A DNA stretch of 64,000 nt from positions 372,001 through 436,000 of the forward strand of contig NZ_NJFZ01000005.1 in NCBI RefSeq assembly GCF_002270355.1. Direction: 5' to 3'. This document shows, in pieces, positions 15,495 to 51,639 of the stretch (positions are counted from its first letter, which is position 1; each line of letters starts with the position of its first letter). Origin of the DNA: Flectobacillus sp. BAB-3569. Lineage in GTDB: Bacteria > Bacteroidota > Bacteroidia > Cytophagales > Spirosomataceae. The notes under the pieces were generated by a model. It searched no databases. It saw only the letters and a program-made list of their open reading frames with translations, and was not told the DNA's origin. The position numbers were made by a program, and so were the translations under genes.

Positions 15495-15830
15495 TTACCT
15501 ATACTTCAATTTCTCTTCCTCTAAGTCCAAACGGTATAAGTGGCGACGAACGATATTTTCGTCTACTTCATGGTCTTTGTTCCACTCACGAAGCCACTCT
15601 CGTTGGTGATTGATCATATCTACATACACCAGTTTACATTCTTGGTCGAGGCGAATATTGTCAAATTCTTTGCCTTCTTCTTCCCATTTTTCTACAATCT
15701 TTTTCAAAATGGGCTGTCTTGTAATTTGTTCTTCGTAATTGGAGTGTAAATATTCCAGACTTTGGTTTGTCAGCTTGCGATACATCTCCTGATAATGCGA
15801 TTCACCTGGGAGTACCTCGTTATCTCGCAA
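15495..15830 (-). pseudogene. C-terminal cytoplasmic tail of the Na+/H+ antiporter, split off by a frameshift
   Basis: This 111-codon frame starts only with TTG and encodes a charged, helical segment ([32 protein letters not shown]) with no membrane helix. It lies in the -1 frame immediately after the antiporter stop. Joining the two at the A7 run gives a protein of about 520 residues, the usual length of bacterial NhaP-type antiporters, which end in such a soluble tail. I therefore treat it as part of that gene, interrupted by a one-base deletion or read through by slippage, not as an independent protein. Confidence 0.7.
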
Positions 15831-15835
15831 AAGAT

Positions 15836-17065
15836 TTATTTTTTTATCAAAATAGGTAAAGTCAATCCTTGAATTAATAGTGTTAGCAAAATCACAATGA
15901 AAGTGATAAACAAAATTAAATTACGCTGTGGAAAAGGCACGCCATTTTCGAGCGTTTCAGGAATTGAAAGTGCCGCAGCCAATGATACAACGCCACGCAT
16001 CCCTGCCCAGCCAATGACCAACGGTGCTTTATAACCTGGGTTTCGTTTTTCGGCTACTGTAATAAAATTTCTAGCTATCAAGGTGGTAACTACGGCCCCA
16101 TACGCCGATAAAATTCTACTTACCATCAACACTACGGTAATTAATACGCCATAACCAATGGCTTCATTTACACTTACGTTTCCTAGCCCCTTCGTGATAG
16201 TAGGAAGTGCTAGACCAATAATCATAAATACCAGTCCATTGAGCACAAAACAAAGACTTTCCCATACCGAAAACCCTTTGATACGCCCGCTACTATTTAA
16301 GAAAAGGTGTTTGCGTTGTGCCAAAAATAGCCCTCCACTTACTACCGCCATAACTCCTGAGCTATGTACCGTTTCAGCTGCGATATACATCATATAAGGA
16401 GCTACAAGTGTCAAGACAATATCCATATTGACATCGGTTGGCAATAAACGATGTGCTTTAAAGAAGCCATAAGCTACCGCCAAACCAATACCGATCCCTC
16501 CAAATACCATCCAACCGAAACTCAAAATGGCATCCTGCCAAATGAATTGACCCGTACCTACAGCAATTAAGGCAAAGCGAAATACAATCAAACTTGAGGC
16601 GTCGTTTAATAAACTTTCGCCTTCAATAATCGATTGGTAACGACTTGGAACATGTACAAACTTCATGATAGCACCCGCGCTTACGGCATCAGGAGGCGAT
16701 ACGATTCCACCCAGCAAGAAGCCTAATGCCAAAGAAAAACCTGGAATATAGCTATTGGCCACAAGCGCCACGACAAAGGCTGTTAGAAATACAATCAGAA
16801 AGGCAAAACTGGTAATAATCCGCCTCCATTTCCAAAGTTCTTTCCACGAAATAGACCATGCTGCTTCGGATAATAGCGGTGGTAAAAAGATAATAAAGAT
16901 TAACTCAGGGTCAATTTCAATGTCAGGAACACTTGGAATAAAACTTAAACCAAGTCCGCCCAATACCAGCAAAATAGGATACGCCACTCTGATTCGGTCG
17001 GCGACAATAATCAGAATAATAATGAGTAAAATTAAGGATAAATAAAACGGAAAATGATGTAACAT
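15836..17065 (-). CDS. Na+/H+ antiporter, CPA1 (NhaP) family, membrane domain; frameshifted at its 3' end
   Basis: A 409-residue polytopic membrane protein of the CPA1 family that exchanges cytoplasmic Na+ for H+. Seen: PPLLSEAAWSISW, GGIVSPPDAVSAGAIMK (ion-site region), EGESLLNDASSLIVFRFAL (the ND pair of the ion-binding site) and AGMRGVVSLAAALSIP, all hallmarks. The frame ends LTLPILIKK-stop. The last codons are ATA AAA AAA TAA, so an A7 run (15839-15845 on the plus strand) abuts the stop. The -1 frame continues with a 111-residue tail. One additional A would fuse them. The sequence A_AAA_AAA is also a textbook -1 slippery heptamer. The membrane domain alone appears complete. Confidence 0.88.
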   Translation of the reverse strand: MLHHFPFYLSLILLIIILIIVADRIRVAYPILLVLGGLGLSFIPSVPDIEIDPELIFIIFLPPLLSEAAWSISWKELWKWRRIITSFAFLIVFLTAFVVALVANSYIPGFSLALGFLLGGIVSPPDAVSAGAIMKFVHVPSRYQSIIEGESLLNDASSLIVFRFALIAVGTGQFIWQDAILSFGWMVFGGIGIGLAVAYGFFKAHRLLPTDVNMDIVLTLVAPYMMYIAAETVHSSGVMAVVSGGLFLAQRKHLFLNSSGRIKGFSVWESLCFVLNGLVFMIIGLALPTITKGLGNVSVNEAIGYGVLITVVLMVSRILSAYGAVVTTLIARNFITVAEKRNPGYKAPLVIGWAGMRGVVSLAAALSIPETLENGVPFPQRNLILFITFIVILLTLLIQGLTLPILIKK

Positions 17066-17184
17066 GCTTGTAGGGCTTGATTTACTTTTAGGTTTGGAAT
17101 TAGGTTATTCAGGCAAATATCAAAGTATTGATATGTAAATCTTTTTCCAATCTACAAAAAACTCATGAGAATGCTTACTGAGAC

Positions 17185-17229
17185 AACAATAAAGGCGTAG
17201 GGAAATGTTCTCCTTACGCCTTTATTGTT
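17185..17229 (-). terminator. Hairpin overlapping the end of the LytTR regulator gene
   Basis: A 15-bp perfect stem (17185-17199 with 17215-17229). One arm is made by the last five codons and stop of the regulator (VTIKA-stop). The minus-strand continuation is only moderately T-rich, so termination is likely but not certain. Confidence 0.6.
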
Positions 17230-17996
17230 ACTTGATTCGCCAACCATTTCTTAAACCATGTTACTTTTTCTTTACTAATAACGATGTCTGAAGGTGCTTT
17301 AGGATGGGTTTGGATATTCACACGACTATGTGGATAACTCTCGATGGTAACAACACTGTCTCTACTCAGTATAAACTGCCTATTGGCTCTCACAAAATAG
17401 GCGGGGTCGAGTTGCTGCTCTAAGTCTTCTAATTTGAACTCTAAACTGTACTTTTTCCCGTCCAATAATTGACCATAAACGATACCTTGATCAATGTAGA
17501 AAAAGGCAAAATCTTCAGTTTTAATAGGAAGAAGCTTATCTCTAAATTTCACTAAAAAACTTTGTCGATAATTCTTAGCCATAAAAGCCTGTTGCGCAAG
17601 AAGCGATTGCAACTGAGAATAATGATAGAGTTGTTGGTTTTTGAACTTTTGAATGGCAGCTGTTAGCGCTTCTTGATCGATAGGTTTCAACAGATAGTCA
17701 ATGCTATTGAGCTTGAAAGCCCGAATAGCATATTCGTCGAAAGCTGTGGTAAAGATAATAGGTGTTTCCAATGTAATTTTTTCATAAATCTCAAAAGAAA
17801 CGCCATCTGATAACTGTATATCCGATAAAATTAAATCGGGCATTGTATTCTGCTGAAACCATGCTAAACCTTCTTCAACGCCCTCTATGATGTGGATAAC
17901 TTCTACAGGAGTTTCTAGTTGCCCCAACAAAAAATGCAATTGACTCGCGGCTGCGGGTTCGTCCTCTACAATAACTATTTTTAGTGGATGGTCCAT
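17214..17996 (-). CDS. LytTR-type response regulator
   Basis: A 260-residue two-component regulator. The receiver domain (about 5-125) has the acidic pair ED at 11-12, phosphoacceptor Asp59 in LILSDIQLS, and the Lys of LLKPID. The LytTR DNA-binding domain occupies about 150-250 (FLVKFRDKLLPI, YFVRANRQFILS). The start codon is 2 bases after the stop of the LytS-type kinase gene, so they are co-transcribed and translationally linked. Such AlgR/LytR pairs in Bacteroidota often govern cell-envelope or polysaccharide genes; the target here is unknown. Confidence 0.92.
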   Translation of the reverse strand: MDHPLKIVIVEDEPAAASQLHFLLGQLETPVEVIHIIEGVEEGLAWFQQNTMPDLILSDIQLSDGVSFEIYEKITLETPIIFTTAFDEYAIRAFKLNSIDYLLKPIDQEALTAAIQKFKNQQLYHYSQLQSLLAQQAFMAKNYRQSFLVKFRDKLLPIKTEDFAFFYIDQGIVYGQLLDGKKYSLEFKLEDLEQQLDPAYFVRANRQFILSRDSVVTIESYPHSRVNIQTHPKAPSDIVISKEKVTWFKKWLANQVTIKA

Positions 17997-17998
17997 TT

Positions 17999-18988
17999 TT
18001 ATGAATGCTTAATCAAGGGTAATCGAACGGTGAATAATGTGTCTTTTTGAATCGAAATACTTTTTCCTGTCATAAGTTTGTATCGATTGTCTAGGTTGGC
18101 CAATCCTATGCCTGTGCCTTCAGCGTGAAGTTTGGGTGAAATTTTATTCGAAACAATGATATTTTCTTCCTCAAATGAAATGTCAATTTGCAAAGGTTTA
18201 CTCGACGATACCACATTGTGTTTGATGGCATTTTCTATCAATAACTGAATCGACAGGGGTAAAATCTGATACGGAGTAGGCTCTATTGGACTAAGATTGA
18301 TTTGTAAATTAGTGCCAAAACGCATTTGTAACAAAAAAACATAGTTTTCAACCAAGACCAATTCATCTTTTAAGCTCACCAACTGCTGTTCTTGCATACT
18401 CAACGAATAGCGCAATACCTGGGAAAGTTTTTGTAAATATTCCTGACTCTTGGCGGTATCTTGGTTAATTAACCAACTAAGCGTATTGAGCGAATTGAAT
18501 AAGAAATGAGGATTCAGTTGATTTTTGAGGGCATTTAATTGAAAAAGTACGTTGTCATGTTTCAATTGTTGGTTTTCGAGTAATAGGGCATTTTTTCTTT
18601 CTGCCTCAATAAGATTTTTGCTCCATAGGTACATCATGACTATCACTACTGCTCCTCGCATGATAATCGATGAAATCATGCCCATCCGCACAGGAAGAAA
18701 AAGGCTGTTGAGCCCTGCCAGCATAAAGCAATAACCGATCAGTAAGCCAAAAATTACAAGAGCTTTATTGCGATTTATCCAAGTATAGGGCGTTTTCTCC
18801 ATCAAAACCCCTACCACACTTATCCCAAGCACAAAGCAGCAAAATACCTGTACTGTTACATCAATTAAGGCAATTTGCCAATTGTGTAAATGTTCTAAGT
18901 TGAGAATGATAATAGGTAAATTGACCAAAAGGGCTGCCAATAGCGCCATCCCTCCTATCACTCGCTTGTATATGAAGTTGTTGAACAT
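17999..18988 (-). CDS. LytS-type sensor histidine kinase (His_kinase family)
   Basis: The start at ATG 18988 (MFNNFIYKRV) is chosen over an upstream TTG; the protein has 329 residues. Residues 1-135 contain four or five membrane helices without a large periplasmic domain. The phosphoacceptor region LKNQLNPHFLFNSLNTL is diagnostic of the family, and QLLIENAIKHN plus TGIGLANLDNR form the ATP-binding part. It sits 2 bases upstream of its LytTR regulator. A TAGATTTG octamer on the minus strand (19011-19018) could be the -7 element, but no -33 is evident at the proper distance. Confidence 0.9.
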   Translation of the reverse strand: MFNNFIYKRVIGGMALLAALLVNLPIIILNLEHLHNWQIALIDVTVQVFCCFVLGISVVGVLMEKTPYTWINRNKALVIFGLLIGYCFMLAGLNSLFLPVRMGMISSIIMRGAVVIVMMYLWSKNLIEAERKNALLLENQQLKHDNVLFQLNALKNQLNPHFLFNSLNTLSWLINQDTAKSQEYLQKLSQVLRYSLSMQEQQLVSLKDELVLVENYVFLLQMRFGTNLQINLSPIEPTPYQILPLSIQLLIENAIKHNVVSSSKPLQIDISFEEENIIVSNKISPKLHAEGTGIGLANLDNRYKLMTGKSISIQKDTLFTVRLPLIKHS

Positions 18989-19083
18989 GAAATCTTGAGC
19001 GTAAACCAATCAAATCTACAAAAAAATAGGTAGTTAACTGAGCTTTATCGGTGAATAGGAAAAGCTTGTCGGTGAAAAGGTTC

Positions 19084-19485
19084 TTATCTTAAAAGGCTAT
19101 CTATTTCTGCTTGTAATGCTTTTGCTTTTGTGAGTGCTTCATCCATGGGTAAACCCTCTGGCATTTCTGGACGTGTGTGTTGGGTAGCGCGAAGCCAAGC
19201 ATTTTTGAGGATATTATGTCTTGTTTGGATTTTCTGAAAAAGTAACAACAAATTACTTACCGAGCGATTGGGGTATAATTCTGTCCAAACTTCTGCATTT
19301 TTGGCTTTTTTCAAACCAAAATAGGTCAACATATTTCTACAGATTATCCAGTGTCCCTGCGAGTTGGGATGCACACCATCAGAAGCGAATGTAGCATCTG
19401 GGTTTTTCTTTTTAGCTTCTTCCAAAGCCTTTTTCATTGGGAAATGGGTATCGATTATCTCCCATTTTTTTGTGCAATAAGCCAT
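19084..19485 (-). pseudogene. C-terminal part of SGNH/GDSL hydrolase, split by frameshift
   Basis: This frame carries the catalytic Asp-His block of the SGNH fold (FASDGVHPNSQGHW) and a helical C-terminus, but has no catalytic Ser of its own. It overlaps the upstream frame by 31 bases in the -1 register. The join falls on an A7 run (T7 at 19465-19471 on the plus strand): eight A would give a continuous ...LIAQKKWEIIDTHFP... sequence. The two pieces together make one hydrolase of about 305 residues. Confidence 0.8.
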
Positions 19486-20015
19486 TGAGCATAGCGATCC
19501 ATGACTTCGGCGTAATTGAAAGTTGCCTCTTTTTTCTTTTCTTCATAAACCGAGGGAGTTAAATGGATAATCTTCGCTCCCATAGCTTCTACTTGTTGAT
19601 GAAGCTTTTGGATACCTTCCTGAAATTTCAAAAAACGTTCTTCTGAAAAAGGCTGATAAATACCATCGTTGATGCCGTAAGTAGCAATAACAACATCTGG
19701 ATGAATCATTTTCAAAACCCTATCAAGACGCTCAAATAATACTGGGCGAGGGAATCGACCATTGGCGTGCCCTTCTTCCGAAAGCCCAGAAACTGTCTCG
19801 CTTGGAAGGCTACAATTATAAAACTCTACCTTACTCTCTGGATTTTGTAAACGATAAATCGTTTCGAATAGCTGTATATATTCGCCCGAATACGTAATAC
19901 TATTTCCGATAAATAATACTTTTTTGACTGAAGGATCAAAAAACTTTTGGCTAAAGCTATGTTGACACAGCAACATAAACGCAATCCAAAGAAAGCGAAG
20001 AGAGATGTTTTTCAT
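19455..20015 (-). pseudogene. N-terminal part of exported SGNH/GDSL hydrolase, split by frameshift
   Basis: From ATG 20015 the frame opens with a signal peptide (MKNISLRFLWIAFMLLC, then HSFSQ). Block I is LFIGNSITYSG (catalytic Ser in GNS), block II has the conserved Gly in GHANGRF, and block III is YGINDG (Asn). It ends at AQKNGR-stop just after an A7 run, before the Asp/His block, which continues in the -1 frame. SGNH hydrolases of this sort are esterases of carbohydrates or polysaccharide acetyl groups in the periplasm. Without a repair the product would lack the Asp-His half of the triad. Confidence 0.85.
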
Positions 20016-20126
20016 AGTTGTGAGAGGCAAATAAATGTACTAAAAGCGGTTTTTACTTTATTGCATTGAAGAGATTAGTGTTAAGGTTAACATTACGTTT
20101 CGTCACAGACCATCAATTCTACCTAG

Positions 20127-20146
20127 CGGGTGAAATGATTCACCCG
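20127..20146. terminator. Short GC-rich hairpin after the Nudix gene
   Basis: CGGGTGAA-ATGA-TTCACCCG, an 8-bp perfect stem 8 bases beyond the Nudix stop on the minus strand. No T-tract follows, so a stabilising 3' stem is as likely as a terminator. Confidence 0.45.
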
Positions 20147-20153
20147 TGGTTAA

Positions 20154-20675
20154 TTAGCCTTTTGTAAAATCAAACATTTCATTGAAAATACCTCTTTTAG
20201 CTTGCCAATCTTGTACAGCTCGTCCAGTGCCTGCTGGCCAAGGCTTAATTTCTTCAGGCTTTAGACGTTTGTAATCTACTAGTTCTTCAGAAAGTTCGAT
20301 TGTTCCCGTAGCTTTGACATGGTAAGTAATAATCAATTGGTTCATTCGGTGAAATTCATATAGGCCTACCAATTCTACGATTTCGCCGTCAAGATTTAGT
20401 TCTTCTTTGACCTCTCGAATAATTCCCTCTTCTGGCGTCTCTCCAGACTCTAAAAATCCCGTAATGAGGGCATACCAAGTCGCTGGCCAAGCAGCATTGC
20501 GTGCCAAAATAACTTCTCCTTCGTGCTCCACTATGGCAGCTACCACAGGAATGGGATTGTTCCAGTAAACATATCCACATTCGCTTTCGTCGGGACAAAA
20601 ATGTCTATCTCTACCATCTTTGATTTTATACACGAGTTCTTTTCCACATTGTGGACAAAATTTCATTTTTGTCAT
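20154..20675 (-). CDS. Nudix hydrolase with N-terminal zinc ribbon (NudC-like)
   Basis: A 173-residue protein. The N-terminus has a zinc ribbon (FCPQCGKEL...RHFCPDESECGY). The Nudix box is GFLESGETPEEGIIREVKEE followed by LNLDG, with all Gly, Glu and REUXEEXGU positions present. Such proteins hydrolyse nucleoside diphosphate derivatives, NADH/NAD-capped RNA being the NudC substrates. The ATG overlaps the upstream stop in TAATG, so translation is coupled to the DMT transporter gene. Substrate not determinable from sequence. Confidence 0.88.
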   Translation of the reverse strand: MTKMKFCPQCGKELVYKIKDGRDRHFCPDESECGYVYWNNPIPVVAAIVEHEGEVILARNAAWPATWYALITGFLESGETPEEGIIREVKEELNLDGEIVELVGLYEFHRMNQLIITYHVKATGTIELSEELVDYKRLKPEEIKPWPAGTGRAVQDWQAKRGIFNEMFDFTKG

Positions 20676-21121
20676 TAGAATTTACGAATAAGTACAACAC
20701 CTGCTAATAATAAAAGTGCCCCCAAGAGGCGCCCTGCCGATATTTCACGTACAGGAAGATTAAATAAACCAAAATGATCCATCAGTATCGAAATAGTCAT
20801 TTGCCCAGCTATCACCAAACCAAAAGTTAGTGCTGCTCCTAATCGTGGCATCAATACCACAATCGTGCTTACATAAAAAGCACCTAAGATTCCAGCCAGC
20901 CAAACATACCAAGGCGCAGTACGAAACGCCGTAAATTGTTGCATGGGTATCTGGGCAACAATGGCATAAACTATCAAGGCAATGAGCCCCGTAATGAATG
21001 ACAGAATAGCCGCTAAAATCGGATGACCTACAATTGAGGCCATTTTACCATTAAATGCAGCCTGCGTAGGAAATACTGCCCCACAAAGAAAAGCTAAGAA
21101 AATAAAAATGAATTGTTGCAT
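20675..21121 (-). CDS. DMT superfamily transporter, DUF606/YdcZ type
   Basis: A 148-residue protein with five predicted membrane helices, the half-size drug/metabolite transporter form that works as a dimer. Typical family features: the N-terminal FPTQAAFNGKMA segment, WYVWLAGILGAFYVSTIVV and LTFGLVIAGQMTISILMDHFG. It is the first gene of an operon with a Nudix hydrolase (TAATG overlap). Substrate unknown. Confidence 0.85.
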   Translation of the reverse strand: MQQFIFIFLAFLCGAVFPTQAAFNGKMASIVGHPILAAILSFITGLIALIVYAIVAQIPMQQFTAFRTAPWYVWLAGILGAFYVSTIVVLMPRLGAALTFGLVIAGQMTISILMDHFGLFNLPVREISAGRLLGALLLLAGVVLIRKF

Positions 21122-21218
21122 TTTATAGGTACAAGAGAGATTGTAATTGCTCGATAAATAGTAAATTGGTTGAAAGGCGTTTGCCTTTTGTAAACTTTCA
21201 ACAATTTCATCAAAAACT

Positions 21219-22145: not shown

Positions 22146-22159
22146 TTGGGGTAAAATAA

Positions 22160-26823: not shown

Positions 26824-26917
26824 AAGCTATGGACTTTCGGTGGTGGACTTTGGAAAAAGCATGGCTGTGGGTATTAAATAACATTTTAACACTCTTTGCC
26901 TTGTGCCTAGTGCCTAA
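26824..26917 (+). repeat. Dispersed repeat family A, copy A3
   Basis: A diverged copy with GGACTTTCGGTGGTGGACTT, AACATTTTAACACTCTTTGC and CTTGTGCCTAGTGCC. It is followed by the TTTTATTTTGC-type flank seen at A1 and A2. Confidence 0.72.
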
Positions 26918-27278
26918 ATACATAACTTAATTTTTATTTTGCCCACTAACCTACTTGTATTACCTATATAATCAATTCATTAGCAAATAATTACGGTAAA
27001 ACTATTTTTTGAATATACGAGTTGTATTATTGAGATTTATCATTAATTTGCGAGTAGGTGGAAAACTCAATGGTTTCATAAAACTACCATTTTTGAATAG
27101 CTATTACCATTTTGTTTCCATCGTTCTGTTAGCCTTGTGCAATTGAATTTTACTAAAATAAGCATGTTTCATAACAACCATATATTCCAACATCTCAAGC
27201 GTAGAGGTCATTAGTAGAGGTAACTGACAAAATACCTTCGGCTGATGACCATATTGTTCACTAAAAATTGAATTAGTC

Positions 27279-31117: not shown

Positions 31118-31140
31118 TTACATTTTATGCAAAATACTCT

Positions 31141-31503
31141 TCATCGACTTTTCGATTTTAGCGAAGTCTTCGATTTTTTTACCAATATACACAAAAGCGA
31201 TGGATGCTGGTAGAGGGCTGTCTTTTTTTGAAGCAGGATAGATTTGTTGAGACGATATGCCTCTCTGGTGCGACGTTTGACTAAGTTACGGTCAACAGCA
31301 TGTTTAAAGTAGCGCTTAGATACAGAGATAAGCATCTGAGGATGTGTAGGTTCTGTATTTTCGTTAGATAATTCTTGTAGAAAATAAGAAACACGAAAAG
31401 GGTAGAGAAAAACCGATTTGGTGTTTTCACTACCCTTATCAAAGAGGGAACCAATTACCTTCTTACTGGAAAGTCGTTCAGATTTCTTTAAAGTTGCTTT
31501 CAT
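31141..31503 (-). CDS. rnpA: Ribonuclease P protein component, C-terminus frameshifted
   Basis: The start is ATG 31503 (MKATLKKSERLSSKKVIGSL). RnpA assists the RNase P RNA in removing tRNA 5' leaders. The RNR-like motif region is VDRNLVKRRTREAYRLNKSI. After LLQKK the frame departs into TALYQHPSLLC and ends early. The -1 frame from the same A7 run (T7 at 31223-31229, plus strand) reads KKDSPLPASIAFVYIGKK and on to a stop at 31118-31120, exactly the expected RnpA ending. One extra A restores a normal protein spanning 31118-31503. As rnpA is normally essential, sequencing error or slippage is more likely than true loss. It lies 84 bases downstream of rpmH. Confidence 0.9.
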   Translation of the reverse strand: MKATLKKSERLSSKKVIGSLFDKGSENTKSVFLYPFRVSYFLQELSNENTEPTHPQMLISVSKRYFKHAVDRNLVKRRTREAYRLNKSILLQKKTALYQHPSLLCILVKKSKTSLKSKSR

Positions 31504-31587
31504 GCAAAGTCTCATGTAAGTGTCTCTGGAATCGCGTTGAGCAACTGTTCACACGATACTTGAAACACGAAACGCAGAAACTTTGTA

Positions 31588-36034: not shown

Positions 36035-36107
36035 AAAGTAATAGCGTTTATATGTTTGTCTGTGTTTCAACAAATACCGCCTGTTAGTCTGTTAATTCTT
36101 TTGTCTC

Positions 36108-39100
36108 ATGAAAAAACATTACTCTTCATTGCCTTGCTCGGATGTGTGTCTGTGGCACAAGCGCAAAAAACTTTCAAGCAAAAATCTAAATCTGGGCAAG
36201 GTACTAGTCCTAATTTGCCCATGGTTGATTTTTCGAAAAGTGCAGAACCTTCTTCTTTTTCTCGCTATAATTTTCAGTATTCGAATAGTATTTTTCGAGA
36301 AAATTTGATGGCGAAAAAAGACGGTCTAAGTATTTCGAGAGATGAAAATGGTATGCCATCGTTTATCGTGGGTAAACCTAAAAATCTTTCTTCTAATACG
36401 ACAACCAAAGCAGGACGATCTTCTGAAGCCTCGGCAGCTTATAACTATTTATCAGCTGTTCAAAAATATTTACATCTCAAGAATGTAGAAGAGGAATTTG
36501 ATGTAAATCAGATTGAGAATGACAATCTTAATCAAACTCATATCCGTGTGCAACAGATGTATAGGGGCGTTCCTGTGTATGGTGCTCAAATCATGTTGCA
36601 TACCAAAGACGATGCCGTGGAGGTAATGAATGGTAAGCTTTATCCGACACCTAGTTTGGCTTCGACCGAACCTAGTATGGGGACAGAGCAAATTGCTTCT
36701 GTAGCTCTTCAGGATGTTCAGCAACAAACTAAATTGCGTACCTTGAGTTTTGCCGAAAAAGCCATGCTTAAATACGAAAAGCCTCAGTCAAAGCTTTTTG
36801 TTTATCATAAAAATGAATCAGTAAACGACCAGCATTTGGCATACGAAGTAGTGGTTCGTCCTAACTTTTTGGAAAGATGGATTTATATGATAGATGCCAA
36901 TTCGGGCGAAATTTTAGATAGATATAGCTATACCTGTACGCTCGATGGGCCACAAAAAGCCAATGCCATAGATTTGAATGGTAAAACGCGTGCTATTAAT
37001 ACCTATTTGGTTGGCTCAAATTATTACATGATTGATGCCTCAAAAAGTATGTATAAAGGCGGAACGATCAATGTCGAAAACCCACAAGGCGTTATTTGGA
37101 CGCTCAATGCAGCAGGTTCGTCAGTAAATGATGTAACTGTACGTCAGGTATCTTCTACTAATAATACTTGGGGTAATACTGAATCTGTTTCGGCACATTA
37201 TAATGCTAGTTTGGCGTATGATTATTACGAAAAAACATTTGGTAGAAAATCCTTAAATGGTAAAGGAGGTAGTATTATTTCCCTAATCAACCTGACCGAT
37301 GAAGATGGCAGAGCCATGGACAATGCTTTTTGGAATGGTGAATTTATGGGATATGGCAGAGGAGCAACGATGTTTAAACCTTTAGCAGGCGGACTTGACG
37401 TAGCTGGGCATGAAATGACTCACGGAGTAGTAGAAAATACAGCCAACTTAGTATATCGTGGACAATCTGGTGCGATTAATGAATCGATGGCAGATATTTT
37501 CGGAGCGATGATTGACAGAGATGATTGGTTTATGGGCGAAGATGTAGTCAAAGGCTCAAAGCCATTAAGAGATTTATCCAACCCTAATCAGGGAGGTGCG
37601 AGCTTGCGAGATGATGGTTTTCAGCCTGCCAGCATGAACCAATATTATACAGGTTCAGAAGATAATTATGGGGTGCATATCAACTCTGGAATTGTCAATT
37701 ATGCTTATTATCGCTTTGCAACATCTATCAATTCTAAGGAAAAAGCAGAAGCCGTATATTACCGTACCTTGACGAAATACTTAACTAGTAGTTCAAAATT
37801 CCTTGATTTGCGTCGTGCAGTGATTCAGTCTGCCACAGATTTATATGGAACAAATAGTACAGAGGTAAATGCAGCTAAAAGTGCTTTTGATGCCGTAGGT
37901 ATTACCGACTCAAACCCACCAAATACAACACCAAACACAGGAACGACAACGCCTGTTCCAGCGCCATCCAATGATGTTCCGACTAAAAAAGGTTCTTCAT
38001 TTATCTTAAGTTATGACCCTAAAGACAAGTCATTGTATGTGTTAGATACAGTTGTAAATACGAGTACCTATGTTTTGATTGCGAAAAATATTGTCCTGAA
38101 AAACAAACCAAGCGTTACTGATGATGGCAAATATGCCTATTTTGTAAAACAAGATAATGGTATCTATCGAATAGACTTGAGTACCGTAAAAACATTTTCG
38201 CCTAATGACCAAAGCTCAACCATCAAACAAGAACTTATTTCGGCTGCGGGTTGGGACAATGTGGCAGTTTCGAAAGATGGTAAGCGCTTGGCGGCTATCA
38301 CAACCAAAGTCGACACCAGTATTTATGTTTATGACCTTAGTGCTTCGGGAAGCTCTATTCCTGGGCGTAAGTTTAGATTGTATAATCCAACCTATTCGGG
38401 TGTAAAAACAGGACAAGTACTTTATGCCGATTCGTTTGAATGGGACTATGATGGCGAAAACTTAGTTTATGATGCCTTTAACCAGTACAAAACTGCAACT
38501 AATACCAAAATTGAATATTGGGATGTAGGTTTTATTAATGTTTGGAGTAATCAAAAGAATACCTTCGGGACTGGCGTTGTCAATAAACTTATCAACGATT
38601 TAGTAGAAGGAGAAAATGTTGGTAGTCCTGCTTTTTCTAAAAACTCTACCAATATGTTGGCTTTTGATTATTTCTATTCGGATAGTCAAGGTGATGATTA
38701 CGCCGTTTTGGGAGTCAACTTATCTCGTCCTTCCGATTTACAGATTACTGCTATCAATAATACCATTGGTTATCCAGAGTTTTCAAGAAGTGATGACTAT
38801 GTAATTTTTAATGCCCTAGATGCTAAAACTGGACAAGAGAATACGGATATTATTCAACTAGACAAAAACGACAAACGTGTAGGTATTGCATCTACGCAAA
38901 AGACGTTAACACAAGAATCCTCTTTTGCCGTTTGGTACACAAACGTAGCCCGTACTTTGCCTCAAAAGAAATCTCAGGCTTTAACTATTACTAAAGTTTC
39001 AGATAAAACGGTGGGCGACGCTGCCTTTACTATTACAGCAAGTTCTAATTCGGGATTAAGCGTAATCACGTCTGTTTTGGGAGGGCCTGCTTCTATTTCT

Positions 39101-39715
39101 AGTAATAGAATTACGTTAAACGGAACCGCAGGACGTGTGCGCTATGGCGCATATCAGGATGGGAATACACAATATTATGCTGTTTCTCAAATAGACTCAT
39201 TCTGTGTGAATCCTGTAAAACCTACCATTTCGGTTGTGAAAAAGACCGATGCTAATGGCGATTATTGGGAATATACCTCAAGTGCTACCACAGGAAATGT
39301 ATGGTACAGAAATGGTACAGTTTTGAGCGATCAAATAGGCTTGCGTTCTATTGCTGTAACCTCAGGTGCTAGTTTTACAGTTCAGGTCGTAACGACGGAT
39401 GGTTGTAAAAGTATTATGTCGGATGCTCGTCAGGACGCTCCAATTGGCAAAGTTTTAGGTTTTGAACCACTGGATAGCAAAGGCGTTATAGTTTCTCCGA
39501 ATCCAATACAGGATATGACAAAAGTACAAGTTGGTACTCAAAACAGAATTGAGTCTATCCATGTCATTAATACCGAAGGAAATGTTTTGCAAACCATAGA
39601 AGGTAGCCGTCAAAACGAGCAATTGATTAATCTTCAGTCGCTTCCAGCAGGTAATTATATTTTAGATGTAAAAACGAAGGAAGGAGACGGAAGACAAAAA
39701 GTGGTCAAATTGTAA
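36108..39715 (+). CDS. T9SS-exported M4 (thermolysin-like) metalloprotease, frameshifted in its signal peptide
   Basis: The mature reading frame runs to 39715. ATG 36108 is out of frame by one base: the A6 run at 36111-36116 would have to be A7 to give MKKTLLFIALLGCVSVAQAQ, a perfect signal peptide. Otherwise only a poor upstream TTG in frame is available. Domains: FTP/PepSY propeptide, M4 catalytic domain with HEMTHGV (bases 37409-37429, HExxH) and NESMADIFG (zinc-ligand Glu), a Pro/Thr linker, a long beta-propeller/TolB-like region, an Ig-like region, and a C-terminal type IX sorting domain (IVSPNPIQDMTKVQV...LPAGNYILDVKTK). About 1,200 residues in all; predicted secreted or surface-attached. 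Confidence 0.87.
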
Positions 39716-43318: not shown

Positions 43319-45112
43319 ATGTCATCCAATTCACAAATTGACTTTTTTCAAAAAAGACAGCAATATTTCGAGTCACTTCAAACACAAACACAAGCTCAAT
43401 ATAATCAATGGGCTGTAGCCCGTGCTATCTACTTTATCGCTTGGGGAAGCCTGTCTTATTGGGCATTCGAAGCATTATCTCCTTGGATTTTTTTAGGAAT
43501 TTTGGTTGTTGGTTTCGGGGTATTTCTTTGGATGATCAACAAGCATTTGGCTATTAAGGCACAAAAACTACGTTATCAACTCTTAACCAATCTTAATGAG
43601 GACGAAGCGCTCCGTTTGAAAGGTCAATTTGTAAGAACAGAAACAGGAGAGGGTTATGCACAAGCACAGCATTTTTATGCTTCAGATTTAGATATCTTTG
43701 GAAAGCATTCCATTTTCAAATTACTCAATCGCACTCGTACCTACACAGGTGCGGAGATATTGGCCACTTGGCTACAAAACCCAGCTAATCAGGCAACTAT
43801 TTCAACACGTCAAGAAAGCTCATCCGAGTTGAAAGACATGATTGATTGGCGACAGAATTTGGAAGTAGATGCTTGGCAAATCGAAGATGTACATCAGCCT
43901 ATTACTCCTATCTTAGAGTGGCTTCAACTAGCTCCGTTTGAGGTTTTAAAGCAAAAATCTTTACGATATTTGCTCTACTTACCCTATCTCAGTATTCCTG
44001 TGGTATTGGTCTGTATTTTAGATATTTTGCCATTACAATGGATTTTGGCGGTGTTTATTATTCATGGTTTTATTCTTAGAAAAGTCAGTGGATTGCTAGG
44101 GCTATATCTCGATAAAACCTCTTCGGTGGCTAATGTCCTAAAAGCCTATGCGAATTTGTGTAAAAGTATTGCAGTACCCGAATTTAAACATCCTCATTTA
44201 CAGAAACTACAAGCAGAAGTTAATCAAGCAACGGCTCATATTCAAGAATTGAGTGTTTTATTAGAAAGAATTGGCAATCGTCAAAATCCCATTTTTGCCC
44301 TCTCTGTCGGTATGTTGACACTATGGGATTTACGTTATTTTATTCATTTGGAAAATTGGCGAGCCAAACATCAAAATCATTTGGCACACTGGATTGCTAT
44401 TGTGAGCGAATTTGAAGCACTGAATAGTTTGGCTGGACATAGTTTTGCAAATCTTTCCCATATTATTCCCCAAATTTCTGATAAAGATTTTATCATCCAT
44501 GCTACACAATTGGGACACCCTTTAATTAAGGCCGAGAAACGTGTTTGTAATGATATTCAGATAGAAGGGCTAGGACAATGCGTGATTATCACTGGCTCGA
44601 ATATGTCTGGAAAAAGTACTTTTCAGCGTACAGTAGCCCTCAATACCATTTTGGCATTGGCTGGAAGTGTGGTATGTGCCCAACAATTTGAGTGTTCAGT
44701 GATGCAAGTATTTACTAGTATGCGTACTCAAGATTCTTTGGAAGAAGATACATCTTCATTCTATGCAGAACTCAAACGCTTAAAACAACTCATCGATTGG
44801 GTTAACGAAAAGCAAAGCTTACCGACTTTCTATTTCCTAGACGAAATCTTAAAAGGTACTAACTCCAAAGACCGTCATGATGGAGCAAAGGCCTTGATGC
44901 TTCAAATGCATCAAGCTCAAGCCTCAGGCTTTATTTCGACCCATGATGTTGATTTGGGGGATGAGTTTAGTGAAAAAGGATTTGTCAAGAACTTCAGTTT
45001 TTCGTCAGAAGTAAGAGAAGGGAAATTAGTTTTTGATTACACCCTCAAACAAGGAATTTGTAGAAGTTTCAACGCAAGTCAGCTGATGGCTCAGATTGGA
45101 ATAAAGATGTAA
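43319..45112 (+). CDS. Membrane-anchored MutS domain V-like ATPase
   Basis: A 597-residue protein with the ABC-type ATPase of MutS at the C-terminus: Walker A ITGSNMSGKSTFQRT near residue 425, signature-like MRTQDSLEEDTSSFYAE, Walker B FYFLDEILKGTNSKDRH and the STHD switch. The mismatch-recognition domains are absent. Instead, hydrophobic segments occur near 40-75 and 215-255. This family (a small MutS-related group common in Bacteroidota) is annotated as a DNA mismatch repair protein by similarity only; mismatch repair is not established, and the membrane helices argue against a classical role. It stands alone. Confidence 0.85.
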   Translation: MSSNSQIDFFQKRQQYFESLQTQTQAQYNQWAVARAIYFIAWGSLSYWAFEALSPWIFLGILVVGFGVFLWMINKHLAIKAQKLRYQLLTNLNEDEALRLKGQFVRTETGEGYAQAQHFYASDLDIFGKHSIFKLLNRTRTYTGAEILATWLQNPANQATISTRQESSSELKDMIDWRQNLEVDAWQIEDVHQPITPILEWLQLAPFEVLKQKSLRYLLYLPYLSIPVVLVCILDILPLQWILAVFIIHGFILRKVSGLLGLYLDKTSSVANVLKAYANLCKSIAVPEFKHPHLQKLQAEVNQATAHIQELSVLLERIGNRQNPIFALSVGMLTLWDLRYFIHLENWRAKHQNHLAHWIAIVSEFEALNSLAGHSFANLSHIIPQISDKDFIIHATQLGHPLIKAEKRVCNDIQIEGLGQCVIITGSNMSGKSTFQRTVALNTILALAGSVVCAQQFECSVMQVFTSMRTQDSLEEDTSSFYAELKRLKQLIDWVNEKQSLPTFYFLDEILKGTNSKDRHDGAKALMLQMHQAQASGFISTHDVDLGDEFSEKGFVKNFSFSSEVREGKLVFDYTLKQGICRSFNASQLMAQIGIKM

Positions 45113-45134: not shown

Positions 45135-45239
45135 TTTTACCCGCAATAGGTATTAAGCTATACGCCGTAAGCTAAAAGTTAAATAGTTTTTTTGATAGAA
45201 TTTAAGCATTTTTTGCCTAATGCCTTACAGCATAAAGGG
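45135..45239 (+). repeat. Dispersed repeat family E, copy E1
   Basis: It starts TTTTACCCGCAATAGG and contains TACGCCGTAAGCTAAAAG, then TTTTTTGCCTAATGCCTTAC and AGCATAAAGGG. The outer parts are inverted repeats of each other (palindromic). It matches 52831-52940 closely and 31037-31117 in reverse. Confidence 0.72.
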
Positions 45240-45272: not shown

Positions 45273-45310
45273 TTTATCAATCATAAATACGGCATTTTAT
45301 GATTGATAAA
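45273..45310. repeat. Perfect 15-bp hairpin in the same intergenic region
   Basis: TTTATCAATCATAAA (45273-45287) and its exact complement (45296-45310) flank an 8-base loop. AT-only stem without a GC core, so not a standard terminator. Confidence 0.6.
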
Positions 45311-45422
45311 TTCAGATTATATCAATCATCGGTGGATTATGGATAGACTAAATCTCATAAAAAGTCTTTGCTTTTCTATAGTTTGAGAAGTACAATTCCT
45401 TTCGAATTATCTTATTTCTATT

Positions 45423-45468
45423 CATCAAAAAAGGGGTCGGAAAATATTTCCCAACCCCTTTTTTGATG
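45423..45468. terminator. Bidirectional terminator hairpin in repeat G4
   Basis: CATCAAAAAAGGGGT (45423-45437) pairs perfectly with ACCCCTTTTTTGATG (45454-45468); an inner GG-AAAAT part pairs imperfectly. Confidence 0.75.
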
Positions 45469-45575
45469 CTATTATGATTGATTTTAACTCTGCATAAGAC
45501 GCAATCACTGCTTCTCTACAGGTACATTGAGATTGAAGAAATAATCACTCATTCTCTCAATCTCAATGCACTCAA
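45423..45575. repeat. Composite repeat, copy G4 (inverted relative to G1)
   Basis: The order is hairpin (45423-45468), AGACGCAAT-CACTGCTTCT segment (about 45497-45515), then an AATAATCACTCATTCTCTC tail reaching to the RND gene stop. It lies between convergent MutS-like and RND genes, as do all other copies. Confidence 0.75.
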
Positions 45576-45577
45576 TT

Positions 45578-48500
45578 TTACTCTACTGCTGGTTTCTTAC
45601 GGAAGTACTTGATACGAACTCGTTCGTTGATGTAGTACATACAAGGTACGATTACAAGTGTAAGTACTGTAGAGAAACTTAAACCGAAGATAATCGTCCA
45701 TGCCAAAATACCCCAGAATACCGCACTGTCGCCACCAAAAGCAATATGTGGATTGAATTCGGTAAACATCGTTACAAAGTCAATACTCAAACCTACAGCC
45801 AATGGTACTAGACCCAAGATAGCGGCAGAGGCTGTCAACAATACTGGAGTCAAACGTACGCTACCAGCTTCGATAATGGCTTCTTTCAATTCATATCCAC
45901 GACCTCGTAGTTCGTCGGTAAACTCTATGAGGAGGATACCGTTTTTCACTACAATACCCGCCAAGGCAATAATACCTACACCTGACATGATTACAGAGAA
46001 TGTCATTCCGAATATCATAAAGCCTAATAATACACCAATCAATGATAACAAGATAGTACCGAAAATGATGATTGGTTTTGAGATAGAGTTAAACTGAATT
46101 GTCAAAATCAAGAAGATTAGCAAAATAGCACCACCAAATGCAGTTCCTAGGAAGCTTGCAGTTTCGGCTTGCTCTTCTTGTTCACCACCCATTTTCACAG
46201 TATAACCACTCGGAATTTCTATATCCTTAATCAAATCATTGATTTGAGCAACAATTTGGTTGGCATTATAACCTGCTACTACATCCGAACCAAGTGTTAC
46301 AACACGTTGCTGATTCTTACGGTTGATTTGACTAAAGGTAGTCGAATAACTAATCGTTGCAATAGAGTTTAATGGAACTTGGCGCAAAACACCTCCCATA
46401 GTCATATCACGATAGGTGATGTTCAAGCTCAAAAGTTTCTCGATTTGATTACGGTCACTTTGTTTGATGCGCAATTGGATTGGATACTCGTCTTTATCAT
46501 CACGGAATTTTGAAATCTCTGAACCAAATAATGCTGTACGAATCGCCAAGGCTACTTGTGAAGAAGAAATCCCTTCTCTTTGAGCTTTTTGCTTATCAAC
46601 ATCAACGATGATTTCAGGCTTGTTGGTAATCAAATCACTTTTTAGTTCATCAATACCTTTGATCCCTGACTTTTCAATTCTTTCTTTAACGTCTTTTTCA
46701 AGTTTTTGTAAAACCGTAAAGTCATCCCCTGCAATTTCAATAGCAATAGGCTTACCCGTTGGAGGTCCATTACGTTCTCTTTCTACAGAAATTTCACTGC
46801 CAGGGATAGGAGATTTCTTAAGTTCCTCACGAATTTCCTGTAAGATACTTTCAGAAGAAATCTCTCCACGTTCTGTCTTTTTCACAAATGCTACCGTCAC
46901 TTTTGATTTTTGTGGAGTAGCCGAACGGTCTGGGTTTGTTGGGTCACCTGCGTTTTTACCGACGTTCGAGATTACCGAGTTAACAGCAATCTCGGCTTTG
47001 TTTTTCTTGATAATATTAAATACTCTTTTCTCAATAATTTTCGTGATAGAGTCAGTTTTACGAGCATCTGTACCTACAGGCATCACGTTGTAGATATACA
47101 CATAATCAGGGTCGCCACTCGGGAAGAAAATCACCTTAGGTTGTACAATACCCATCATGATGAATGTAAATACTAGTAGACCAAATGTTGCAATTACTAC
47201 ACCAATCGGACGTTTGCCATGAATCACCCAAGCTACTACTGCACGATAGCGATTTTTGAACGCAGGAAGTGCTGTTTCTTGGAAAGGCACGATGATTTTT
47301 GGCGATAAAATAAAGTGGTTGAAAAGGTATAACGCAAGGATAAACACAAACAAGTTACCAAGTCCGAAGTTGATGAAATAACCTACTACCGCCAACAATC
47401 CCATAACAATTAGAGGCTTTTGCAAAGACTTGATACCTTCTACGTGGTGTGTTTCTTCGTCGTGACGTTTCATGAATGATACCGCAAAAACAGGGTTCAT
47501 TACATAAGCAACCAACAAGGAAGCAAACAACGTGTAAATCAAAGTAATAGGTAAGAATTTCATAAACTCACCTACAATACCTGGCCAAAACAACAACGGT
47601 ACAAACGGAGCAATCGTAGTAAGCGTACCTGACAATACTGGTAAGAATACCTCTGATGCCGCTAATTTTACGGCTTCAACAATGCTCAACTTGCGGAACT
47701 GATTAAAGATACGGTGAGAGTTTTCGATTACCACAATGGCATCGTCTACCACAATACCCAAACCTAGTAAGAAAGCAAATAATACAATCGTATTGAGCGT
47801 AAAGCCTGAGAAGTACAAAGGAATAAAGGCGATCAATGCTGATAATGGTACCGACAAGCCCACAAAGATGGCATCGCGCACACCCATGAAGAACATTAAT
47901 ACAAATACTACAAATAAAAAGCCTAGAATTACGGTATTTACCAAGTCATCAATATCAGATTTAGTACGTTCTGAGGTATCGGCAGTGATTTGTACTTTTA
48001 CGCCTTGAGGCAAACGAGTTTCTTCGTATTTGTCCAAAATCTTTTCAATCTGCTCAGAAGCCGAAATCAGGTTGGCTCCACTACGCTTAATTACGTTGAG
48101 TGTAATAACCGAACGGTTGTCTAAGCGTGCAAAATCTTGACGCTCTTCATGACTATCTATAACCTCTGCTACATCACCCAAACGAATCATCGCACCCGAA
48201 GACGAACGCAACATAATGTTGGCGATTTGGTCAACTGATTTGAACTCACCTTTTACACGAAGCGTACGACGTACTCCATCGACATTGAGGTCACCACCCG
48301 AAATGTTAATGTTTTCCCCCTGAACGGCCATTTGAATATCTGTAAAAGATAATCCTGAAGCCTGAGCTTTGTATAAGTCTAGGTTGATTTGGATTTCACG
48401 GTTCAAAGCCCCAACGATATCAACACGGGTAATTTCTGGTAAACCTTCAATCAAGTCTTGTAACTCTTCAGCGTATTCTTTGAGTTTTCCTAAAGGATAA

Positions 48501-48994
48501 TTACCCGCCAAGTTGATGTTCATAATCGGGAATTCCGAGAAGTTTACATCTTGTGCTGTTGGTCCTGAATCTAGCTTTTGAGGTAAATCTTTTTTGGATT
48601 TATCTACTGCATCACGCACACGCTGTAAGGCATCTTCAACCTTTACATTCGGATTAAATTCAATCAAAATAACCGAAACATCTTGCAAGGCATTTGATTT
48701 GATACGTTTTACCCCTTGAATCGTCTTTAGTTGCTTTTCAATAGGCTTGTTGATTACGTTTTCAATATCCGCAGGCGTTGTACCAAAATAGACCGTTTGC
48801 ACATAAATCTGAGGTACTTTAATGTCTGGAAATTGTTCTTTGGGAAGGCTTCCGTAGATACCTAAACCCGCCAAAAACACCATAAAGGTGAAAAGGTAAA
48901 CGGTGGTTTGATTGGAGGCAAGCCATCCAATCATATTATAGATTCCACCACTACCATGAGGTAATTCTTGTATATCTTTTTCTTGATTTTCCAT
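45578..48994 (-). CDS. RND efflux transporter permease
   Basis: The start at ATG 48994 (MENQEKDIQELPHG) gives 1,138 residues; an upstream start would add 18 unlikely residues. The resistance-nodulation-division fold is evident: a first helix near 30-50, large periplasmic loop (VQTVYFGTTPADIENVINKP), a block of helices with GLGIVVDDAIVVIENSHRIF (proton-relay Asp pair), the second loop, and the last block with GIIALAGIVVKNGILLIEF. It pumps drugs or other small molecules out across the envelope together with the adaptor and TolC-like genes. It is last in the tetR-tolC-adaptor-permease operon; its stop abuts repeat G4. Confidence 0.94.
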   Translation of the reverse strand: MENQEKDIQELPHGSGGIYNMIGWLASNQTTVYLFTFMVFLAGLGIYGSLPKEQFPDIKVPQIYVQTVYFGTTPADIENVINKPIEKQLKTIQGVKRIKSNALQDVSVILIEFNPNVKVEDALQRVRDAVDKSKKDLPQKLDSGPTAQDVNFSEFPIMNINLAGNYPLGKLKEYAEELQDLIEGLPEITRVDIVGALNREIQINLDLYKAQASGLSFTDIQMAVQGENINISGGDLNVDGVRRTLRVKGEFKSVDQIANIMLRSSSGAMIRLGDVAEVIDSHEERQDFARLDNRSVITLNVIKRSGANLISASEQIEKILDKYEETRLPQGVKVQITADTSERTKSDIDDLVNTVILGFLFVVFVLMFFMGVRDAIFVGLSVPLSALIAFIPLYFSGFTLNTIVLFAFLLGLGIVVDDAIVVIENSHRIFNQFRKLSIVEAVKLAASEVFLPVLSGTLTTIAPFVPLLFWPGIVGEFMKFLPITLIYTLFASLLVAYVMNPVFAVSFMKRHDEETHHVEGIKSLQKPLIVMGLLAVVGYFINFGLGNLFVFILALYLFNHFILSPKIIVPFQETALPAFKNRYRAVVAWVIHGKRPIGVVIATFGLLVFTFIMMGIVQPKVIFFPSGDPDYVYIYNVMPVGTDARKTDSITKIIEKRVFNIIKKNKAEIAVNSVISNVGKNAGDPTNPDRSATPQKSKVTVAFVKKTERGEISSESILQEIREELKKSPIPGSEISVERERNGPPTGKPIAIEIAGDDFTVLQKLEKDVKERIEKSGIKGIDELKSDLITNKPEIIVDVDKQKAQREGISSSQVALAIRTALFGSEISKFRDDKDEYPIQLRIKQSDRNQIEKLLSLNITYRDMTMGGVLRQVPLNSIATISYSTTFSQINRKNQQRVVTLGSDVVAGYNANQIVAQINDLIKDIEIPSGYTVKMGGEQEEQAETASFLGTAFGGAILLIFLILTIQFNSISKPIIIFGTILLSLIGVLLGFMIFGMTFSVIMSGVGIIALAGIVVKNGILLIEFTDELRGRGYELKEAIIEAGSVRLTPVLLTASAAILGLVPLAVGLSIDFVTMFTEFNPHIAFGGDSAVFWGILAWTIIFGLSFSTVLTLVIVPCMYYINERVRIKYFRKKPAVE

Positions 48995-49142
48995 TTTAAT
49001 AGAGATAGTTATACAGCCATTGGCTTTAATGCTATGGTCTGTTGGCAAGTGTTTCTTGCCTATTTATCCTTAGAAATGATGCGATTGAAATTGGATTGTG
49101 GAAAAACAATAAGTTATCCACAATCCAAATACTTCATGTGGA

Positions 49143-50258
49143 TTAGTAACTCAAAGGAGTTCCATCTACTAAGTCTTGGTATCCTTGCGTAATCAAAAGT
49201 TCACCAGCCGAAAGTCCTTCAAGGATTTCGATATTACCATTATAACTCAAACCCGTTTTTACTTTACGACCACGTGCTACTTTTTTACCATTTTCGGTAA
49301 CAGCTACATAAACGATATCGCCTAATTCGGTATTCTGAATTAAGTTTTGAAGAATTACAATAGAATTAGCTTTTGACAAGTCATTGATAGTCAGGATAGC
49401 TACTTGGTTTGGCTTTAATTGACCACCCAAGTTTGGTACTTTAGCTTCTACGCCAAAAGTTCTTGAAACTGGATCAACTAGGGCGTCAACCACACCTACT
49501 TTTGTATTCAATTCCTTGTTAATATCTGGGAATTTCACATTTAGGGCATCACCACGTTTTACAGAGCCCAAATAAGTATCTGCTACTTTACCTACAACTT
49601 TCAAATTACCTACATTTACTAATTGGAAAATAGGTTGTCCTGGCATACCCATTTCACCTACCTTTTGGCGAACCACTTCAACCGTTCCAGCGATTGGCGC
49701 ATATACTTTGGTCATTGCCAATTGGGCTTCCATTGTTACAATACGTTTTTCAAGTGCTTCTTTATTTGCTTTTGCTTGTAGGTATTGTACCTCTGTACCT
49801 ATTTGTTGATCCCAAAGTGCTTTTTGTTTGTTGAAAAGCGTAACGGCTAAGTCTAGTTGTTGCTTGATTTCAGCCATTGACTGTTTCAAAACGGTATTGT
49901 CGACAGTAGCCACCAATTGACCTTTTTTCACAGCTTGTCCAACAGTTACTAAAACGCTTGTGAGTTGTCCACTCATTTGTGGAGTAACTTGCACGATATT
50001 TTCAGAGCTTACCAAACCTTGAACTTCAACAAAGTGCTTGAAGCTCTGTGCTTGAATTGGGCTTACAGATACTGCTACGATTTTTTGTTCTTCTTTTTTC
50101 TCTGTTTTACCTAATTCTTTTTCTAAGCCTTTGATTTTGGTTTCAATTTCTTGTTTTTGAGCTTTTAGGGCTTCTAGCTCGGCTTTTTTATCAGTTGATT
50201 TATTGCAGGCTGCCAATAAAAATAAGGCAGAGGCTATTGCTAAGTATTGCTTTTTCAT
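49143..50258 (-). CDS. RND efflux periplasmic adaptor lipoprotein
   Basis: A 371-residue membrane fusion protein. The signal peptide ends in the lipobox LLAAC (MKKQYLAIASALFLLAACNK), so it is lipid-anchored. A coiled coil near 25-55 (KAELEALKAQKQEIETKIKG) precedes a split lipoyl domain (LTSVLVTVGQAVKKGQLVAT and VYAPIAGTVEVVRQKVGEMG), a helical hairpin between the halves, and beta-barrel/membrane-proximal domains. It joins the RND pump to the outer-membrane channel. It lies 32 bases downstream of the TolC-like gene. Confidence 0.93.
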   Translation of the reverse strand: MKKQYLAIASALFLLAACNKSTDKKAELEALKAQKQEIETKIKGLEKELGKTEKKEEQKIVAVSVSPIQAQSFKHFVEVQGLVSSENIVQVTPQMSGQLTSVLVTVGQAVKKGQLVATVDNTVLKQSMAEIKQQLDLAVTLFNKQKALWDQQIGTEVQYLQAKANKEALEKRIVTMEAQLAMTKVYAPIAGTVEVVRQKVGEMGMPGQPIFQLVNVGNLKVVGKVADTYLGSVKRGDALNVKFPDINKELNTKVGVVDALVDPVSRTFGVEAKVPNLGGQLKPNQVAILTINDLSKANSIVILQNLIQNTELGDIVYVAVTENGKKVARGRKVKTGLSYNGNIEILEGLSAGELLITQGYQDLVDGTPLSY

Positions 50259-50290
50259 TATTTCTTTTTTGCGATTTTTAGTATTAGGGA

Positions 50291-51454
50291 TTATTCTACA
50301 AATAACTTGCCTTTAGCTTTGTCAAGATCAACTTTAGCAATTAGGACGTTATATAAAGTAGCAAAATAATTGTTTTGAGCTTCTTTGTATGATGATTCAG
50401 CATTGACTAATTCTAAGTTAGTACCAACACCTTGTTCATATTTGATTTTAGTCACACGAACAACTTCTTTGGCCAAATCCATATTATGCTTTTGTTCCTG
50501 AAGGGTTTCGTAGGCATTTTTCAAGGTAATTTGACCTTGTTTTACCTGTAAGTCAATACTGTTTTGCAAGAAGTTAAAGTTTTCTTTGATCTTCTGTACA
50601 CTATTAGCAGCTTGAATAATTTTGTATTTTTTTGCGAAACCATCAAAGATTGGCACTTGGATAGAGAAGCCAACTGTAGCGGCGTTAAACCAAGGTTTTG
50701 TAAGTAAATCGCCAAATTGTGGACGACCCGTCGAATAGCCATACGTACTTGTAAGGAATACTTTTGGCAAATAGCCTGCTTTTTGGTTTTTCAAATCTAG
50801 CTGAGCCAAACGATCTTGTGTTTGCAACATCGAATATTCTATACGGTCGCCATATTGAAAAGGAGTTTCGTTTTCTGGTAAAAACTCATTTAGGTTGACA
50901 CTGCTCAATTTTTCGGTAACTACCACGGGTTCAGTTAGGGGTAATCCCATCTGAAATTTGAGCAAGTTGTAACTCAATTCTTGCAAACGTTCTACATTTT
51001 TGTACTCTATTGAAAGATTATTCTTTTGTACCTCTAAACGTTGTACGTCAAGTCTTTCAACGAATCCTTGAAGATTTAATGCTTTGGTTTGATTGAAAAG
51101 AGAATCAAGGCGACCCATATTGAGCTTAAGAATTTCTAAACGCTCTTCATTGACAAGAATGCCATAATAGGCCTTCGTAACATTTTCAGCAATTTGCTGT
51201 TTGGTTTGCGTAAGTGACTTGGCCGACAATTCCTTATAAACATCTGCAGCTTTTAAGCCTAAGGTATACGAGCCGTCAAATAGTAACTGGCTCAAGCTTG
51301 CAACGGCATTACCACTGTTACGAACACCAAACTCTGCTGCTACAACATCGCCGTCTTTAGCATTTGGGTCAAATGTTTTGGCTGGAATAAAAACCCTTTG
51401 GATGATAAAGTTGTTGGTGTAACCAATGTTTGCGTTTACTTGTGGCAATCCCAT
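50291..51454 (-). CDS. TolC family outer-membrane efflux channel, main part (5' frameshifted)
   Basis: The long helical barrel/hairpin repeats of TolC (ENVTKAYYGILVNEERLEIL, NAYETLQEQKHNMDLAKEVV, KIKYEQGVGTNLELVNAESS) fill this frame. Its apparent start (MGLPQVNANIGYTNNF) is internal: the signal peptide and first helix are encoded just upstream (51511-51639) in another frame. Inserting one A in the A5 run (T5 at 51525-51529, plus strand) fuses them as ...AVKNHSNVKTAQLDVLNA.... The complete protein would have about 449 residues, standard for the family. It provides the exit duct for the adjacent RND pump. Confidence 0.9.
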   Translation of the reverse strand: MGLPQVNANIGYTNNFIIQRVFIPAKTFDPNAKDGDVVAAEFGVRNSGNAVASLSQLLFDGSYTLGLKAADVYKELSAKSLTQTKQQIAENVTKAYYGILVNEERLEILKLNMGRLDSLFNQTKALNLQGFVERLDVQRLEVQKNNLSIEYKNVERLQELSYNLLKFQMGLPLTEPVVVTEKLSSVNLNEFLPENETPFQYGDRIEYSMLQTQDRLAQLDLKNQKAGYLPKVFLTSTYGYSTGRPQFGDLLTKPWFNAATVGFSIQVPIFDGFAKKYKIIQAANSVQKIKENFNFLQNSIDLQVKQGQITLKNAYETLQEQKHNMDLAKEVVRVTKIKYEQGVGTNLELVNAESSYKEAQNNYFATLYNVLIAKVDLDKAKGKLFVE

Positions 51455-51510
51455 TGCTTTGATTTCATTTACCTTAGCACTGGCATTTAATACATCAAGT
51501 TGTGCGGTTT

Positions 51511-51639
51511 TTACATTCGAATGGTTTTTACTGCATAATCTATCGCTTCCTTGAGTGTGTAGCTTTGTTGGGCACGAGCTACCACCGAAGTAAGCAATAT
51601 ACTGAAAGTCAGTAAGCTACTTTTAAGTTTAGTTTTCAT
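51511..51639 (-). pseudogene. N-terminal signal peptide fragment of the TolC-like gene
   Basis: From ATG 51639: a signal peptide (MKTKLKSSLLTFSILLTSVV, cleavage after ARAQ) then SYTLKEAIDYAVK, the typical first helix of TolC proteins, ending TIRM-stop. The next frame carries the rest of the channel. A single missing A at 51525-51529 explains the break. Confidence 0.82.

Follow-up and report, generated by a model that had tools for sequence, protein, structure and literature searches.

Homopolymer indel errors in draft assemblies are typical of 454 and nanopore sequencing as well as of Ion Torrent sequencing. Programmed −1 ribosomal frameshifting of the dnaX type is a second setting in which a single-base register change is met. 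For Buchnera and Blochmannia, slippage of RNA polymerase has been proposed to rescue genes that are otherwise under constraint but carry a frameshift in an A/T run (PMC3017870); the setting described in that source is a reduced endosymbiont genome with tracts of up to 12 bp in a handful of genes, and dnaX-type −1 frameshifting is named there as well. Overall insertion rates per transcribed nucleotide are given in PMC5574713 as 1.35 × 10−6 for E. coli and 1.30 × 10−5 for Buchnera, with an exponential rise with run length. The errors of Ion Torrent sequencing are described in PMC12046094 as falling in runs of mean length 5.5 and maximum length 9, adenine being the most affected base.

The window, by which the whole stretch of DNA analysed here is meant (64,000 nucleotides; bases 372,001–436,000 of contig C99), was taken from a draft genome of 6.62 Mb in 183 contigs. 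A sequence-only reading of it had claimed that in each of five genes a homopolymer is missing exactly one A/T, and had explained this by under-calling in the assembly, with slippage of RNA polymerase as the alternative. The window was compared with two close relatives of the same genus, G001 and G003. The S41 protease of the window shared 98% identity with the Flectobacillus longus LYT7W protein and 99% with the protein in a record named 'Cellulophaga sp. BC115SP'; this record groups with Flectobacillus on this protein and its name looks wrong.

Frame breaks in the window

All five frame breaks were present at the positions claimed, and the run lengths and coordinates given for them were exact. 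The Na+/H+ antiporter gene (15495–17065, minus strand) encodes 523 residues in both G001 and G003, the G001 copy being assigned to family TIGR00831. In the window its frame shifts at a T7 run (15839–15845; the five runs of the window are given as read on the plus strand), leaving an ORF of 409 residues (15836–17065), and in the relatives the run is interrupted by a C on the plus strand. The gene for an SGNH/GDSL-like hydrolase (19084–20036, minus strand; Lipase_GDSL_2 on the G001 copy), with 317 residues in both relatives, is here divided into two ORFs (19455–20030 and 19084–19485); the T7 run at the break (19465–19471) is T8 in G001 and in G003.

The rnpA gene (31118–31515, minus strand) has 132 residues in both relatives and shifts frame near codon 98. 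The Pfam model Ribonuclease_P was matched over positions 1–81 of 109 here, compared with 1–108 in all four other genomes of the genus. Its break lies at a T7 run (31223–31229), and in the relatives one extra C precedes a T7 run of equal length on the plus strand. A short repeat was noted at 45138–45201 and 52833–52896 of the window (64 nt, 78% identity), and part of it is like the stretch directly downstream of rnpA.

The gene for an M4 (thermolysin-type) protease with a T9SS sorting tail (36108–39715, plus strand; 1202 residues in both relatives) is shifted immediately 3′ of its ATG at an A6 run (36111–36116) which is A7 in G001 and G003. Reading from an upstream TTG keeps the remainder of the frame open (ORF 36056–39715). 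The fifth gene encodes a TolC-like outer membrane factor (50291–51639, minus strand; 449 residues in G001) and is shifted approximately 113 nt after its start at a T5 run (51525–51529), which leaves an ORF at 50291–51454. This site is covered by G001 alone, in which the gene is open and intact, and lies outside the coverage of G003.

Three-way alignments with G001 and G003 placed a one-base gap in the present genome, and in neither relative, at the antiporter, SGNH, rnpA and M4 sites. The comparison with orthologous genes of close relatives that the earlier reading had proposed thus found intact copies wherever a relative covers a site (both relatives at these four sites and one at the TolC-like site). 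The loss of exactly one A/T from a homopolymer was directly visible in two of the five genes, those for the SGNH hydrolase (eight to seven) and the M4 protease (seven to six). In the antiporter gene, rnpA and the gene for the TolC-like factor, a G/C pair stands within or next to the run in the relatives, and we infer that an A/T run was shortened at these three sites also.

Between positions 15,495 and 64,000 of the window, 47,480 of the 48,506 bases aligned to a relative, and the candidate −1 events were the five sites and two others. The latter two, both in one gene of 607 residues, were rejected: 43,324 reflects an ORF end, and 44,079 belongs to a compensated pair. In the first 15,494 bases of the window, 5,325 aligned to the stretches fetched from G001 and G003, and no break was listed within these aligned bases; several blocks of this part aligned to the more distant G002. 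This difference may mark a rearrangement near 13.8–15.5 kb. A repeat of about 120 bp, dispersed and largely intergenic, was observed at 26826–26942, 12885–13000 and 7718–7800 of the window. It was matched 23 times in 720 kb of the present genome, three times in the G001 stretch and four times in the G003 stretch; the one copy tested showed no notable fold, and short matches to a related-looking repeat numbered in the dozens in G001 and G003.

Recurrence across the assembly

The comparison was extended to 720 kb of the present genome (all of C99 plus C75), set against stretches of 491 kb (G001) and 465 kb (G003). At least one relative aligned to 535,940 of these bases and both relatives to 298,847. 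The candidate list was restricted to −1 events and comprised 51 rows, of which 20 were kept, representing 19 sites (rplC accounts for two rows). Among the 31 dropped rows, 24 lay near ORF ends (no more than 80 nt from the start or no more than 60 nt from the end) and were removed because the true start is often further in; some of the near-end rows among them may also be real. The seven deep dropped rows consisted of three in one gene (78% identity), the compensated row at 44,079 of the window, a C-run in a small ORF and two ambiguous alignments (C99:67887 and C99:98163). Four near-start sites, in rplC, rpsN, the M4 protease gene and the gene for an M28 peptidase, were retained, their starts being clear.

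Hand vetting thus left 19 coding −1 breaks in the 535,940 aligned bases, which extrapolates to approximately 235 per genome if they are uniformly distributed. They were found on both sampled contigs, C99 and C75, and were supported by both relatives in 13 cases, by G001 alone in three and by G003 alone in three. Just three +1 events in the present genome lay at least 80 nt from the start and at least 60 nt from the end of an ORF. These were judged to be alignment noise, all being in genes of 85% identity or less: one had approximately 83% identity and G001 coverage alone, one lay at the odd 5′ part of a G001 ORF and one was inside a cluster of compensating indels.

A separate test was made on conserved genes, in which a break was counted only if it lay at least 40 nt from both gene ends. 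With G001 genes as the reference, 11 of 251 conserved genes were broken in the present genome and not in G003; among the 11 are a compensated cluster, a gene whose alignment is ambiguous and a gene in which the break lies just 49 nt after the ORF start. With G003 genes as the reference, ten of 253 were broken in the present genome. The mirror tests gave 0 of 252 for G003 and one of 253 for G001 (a complex indel cluster), and when the ORFs of the present genome served as the reference, two of 256 were broken in G001 and one of 257 in G003. The coding frame changes seen in G001 were adjacent compensating pairs, one four-base loss and noise near ORF ends. Breaks of the kind found in the five genes are therefore confined to the present assembly among the three compared, and exceed chance.

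The genes broken among the vetted set include rplC (ribosomal protein L3, at about codon 7), rpsN (ribosomal protein S14, at codon 11), recF and the gene for an aspartokinase. Single matches were found in the present genome for rplC, rpsN and rnpA, and each of these single copies is broken. The breaks are indifferent to gene function and essentiality, affecting rplC, rpsN, rnpA, recF and the aspartokinase gene alike. That the assembly shows the same fault at other places, genes for ribosomal proteins among them, makes sequencing error rather than biology the most likely origin. The completeness rating of the genome, 99.81%, counts against an artefact.

Some of the breaks in the window might instead be real mutations that recently inactivated dispensable genes, with errors accounting for the breaks in other genes. 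The SGNH, M4, TolC-like and antiporter genes may, on general knowledge, be dispensable, and A/T runs do change length naturally, one-base losses in non-coding runs being present in all three genomes. Runs of similar length are nevertheless broken in the same way in rplC, rpsN and rnpA, such breaks are almost absent from the relatives and the broken genes show no decay downstream, so that this mixture is very unlikely. A bacterium of 6.6 Mb with truly short runs that tolerates a couple of hundred one-base frame breaks in short A/T runs, those in essential ribosomal proteins included, because its RNA polymerase or ribosome slips unusually often would be very unlikely indeed.

Run lengths, sense strand and recoding

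Run lengths were compared for coding runs of at least five bases whose flanks were kept in all three genomes. The present genome was one base short at eight runs and G001 at one, G003 was one base long at one, and 1,085 runs were equal. The coding loss rate in the present genome climbed with run length from six to nine (1/238, 3/55, 1/4 and 2/3, respectively), these being small numbers. Non-coding runs, which are weaker as evidence, showed no clear overall excess of one-base losses in the present genome (seven, compared with six in G001 and five in G003; for runs of at least six, six, two and two, respectively), and non-coding runs of nine were short in the present genome in none of four cases. 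Non-coding one-base gains numbered three in the present genome and two in G003. The 16S rRNA family was matched in one of the five genomes (G002, in two pieces) and was unusable as an untranslated control.

At those vetted sites whose run contains or adjoins a different base in a relative, exchanging that base for the run base was synonymous in seven of eight cases, compared with a background of 13–15% (binomial p = 1.2 × 10−5); the test covered vetted sites only and the TolC-like gene was left out. In the dropped rows the two kinds of exchange, synonymous and non-synonymous, were about equally frequent. The pattern would arise if a silent substitution lengthened the run and one unit was then lost from the called sequence; random deletion of the odd base would not produce it.

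In broken genes with no other indels, substitutions at the first, second and third codon positions numbered 97, 44 and 901 downstream of the breaks and 46, 17 and 356 upstream. The persistence of third-position substitutions downstream indicates that the broken genes are not decaying. This retained coding constraint would also be expected if the deletions were real and slippage of RNA polymerase at the A/T runs made part of the mRNA correct, the mechanism put forward for Buchnera and Blochmannia. The sites are indeed A/T runs, mostly with A on the sense strand (16 of 19, with one further A by the G003 alignment), and sequencing of mRNA made by E. coli RNA polymerase gave 0.39–0.82% insertions at A7, T6 and T7 (PMC6260861). 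A bias to sense A, which would favour recoding, was looked for and none was found among the 19 sites, the share being what availability predicts (about 70% expected, p = 0.22).

The run lengths weigh further against slippage. In E. coli reporters it was undetectable below seven Ts or eight As, as reported in PMC6260861, a limit that is that of E. coli and may not be that of this genus. Eighteen of the 19 runs are shorter than this, being A5–A7 or T5 (one of them placed by the G003 alignment), and the 19th is A8. The intact genes of the present genome hold 260 runs of at least seven (partly counted twice), many of them as long as or longer than the broken ones, and slippage of less than 1% could not plausibly supply L3 and S14. 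The overall insertion rates in PMC5574713 also count against it. The present breaks resemble the endosymbiont case (PMC3017870) in that the A/T runs hit by frameshifts lie in genes otherwise under constraint; the present genome differs in its size of 6.6 Mb, in its runs of 5–8 bases, in the extrapolated couple of hundred genes affected and in the fact that these genes are intact in close relatives. The alternative put forward in the sequence-only reading did not stand up to these comparisons, and rescue by RNA polymerase slippage is extremely unlikely.

Real deletions could also be compensated by programmed −1 ribosomal frameshifting at A-rich heptamers that restores the frame. In-frame slippery heptamers occur at eight of the 19 sites, and A AAA AAG stands in frame in rnpA and rpsN, as in the dnaX type. 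The other 11 sites have no in-frame heptamer of the form X XXY YYZ, and among runs in intact genes of the present genome such heptamers accompany 32% (runs of at least six) to 71% (runs of at least seven), so that the breaks show no heptamer enrichment over intact genes. G001 and G003, moreover, make the same proteins with no shift at all. The probability of this kind of recoding is accordingly minimal.

Probable homopolymer under-calling and its consequences

The five breaks are, with high probability, base-calling or consensus errors of the draft assembly that arose through under-calling of homopolymers. The explanation preferred in the sequence-only reading is supported by the restriction of the breaks to this assembly, their presence on both contigs, their blindness to gene function, the trend with run length in coding runs and the occurrence of sense-A and sense-T runs in proportion to their availability. 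A/T runs with a true length of approximately 6–9 would have been reported one base short from reads made by a method prone to homopolymer errors, and the living genome would carry intact genes. The breaks resemble the Ion Torrent errors described in PMC12046094 in that runs of about 5–9 are wrong in length by one base, adenine is the most affected base and frameshifts arise in arbitrary genes. They differ in that the vetted set contains losses only, and other methods that under-call homopolymers would fit equally well.

By extrapolation, the draft genome carries perhaps a couple of hundred false frameshifts, and claims of pseudogenes or gene loss drawn from this assembly would therefore be untrustworthy. 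Unless reads confirm the short runs, the breaks would carry no biological message.
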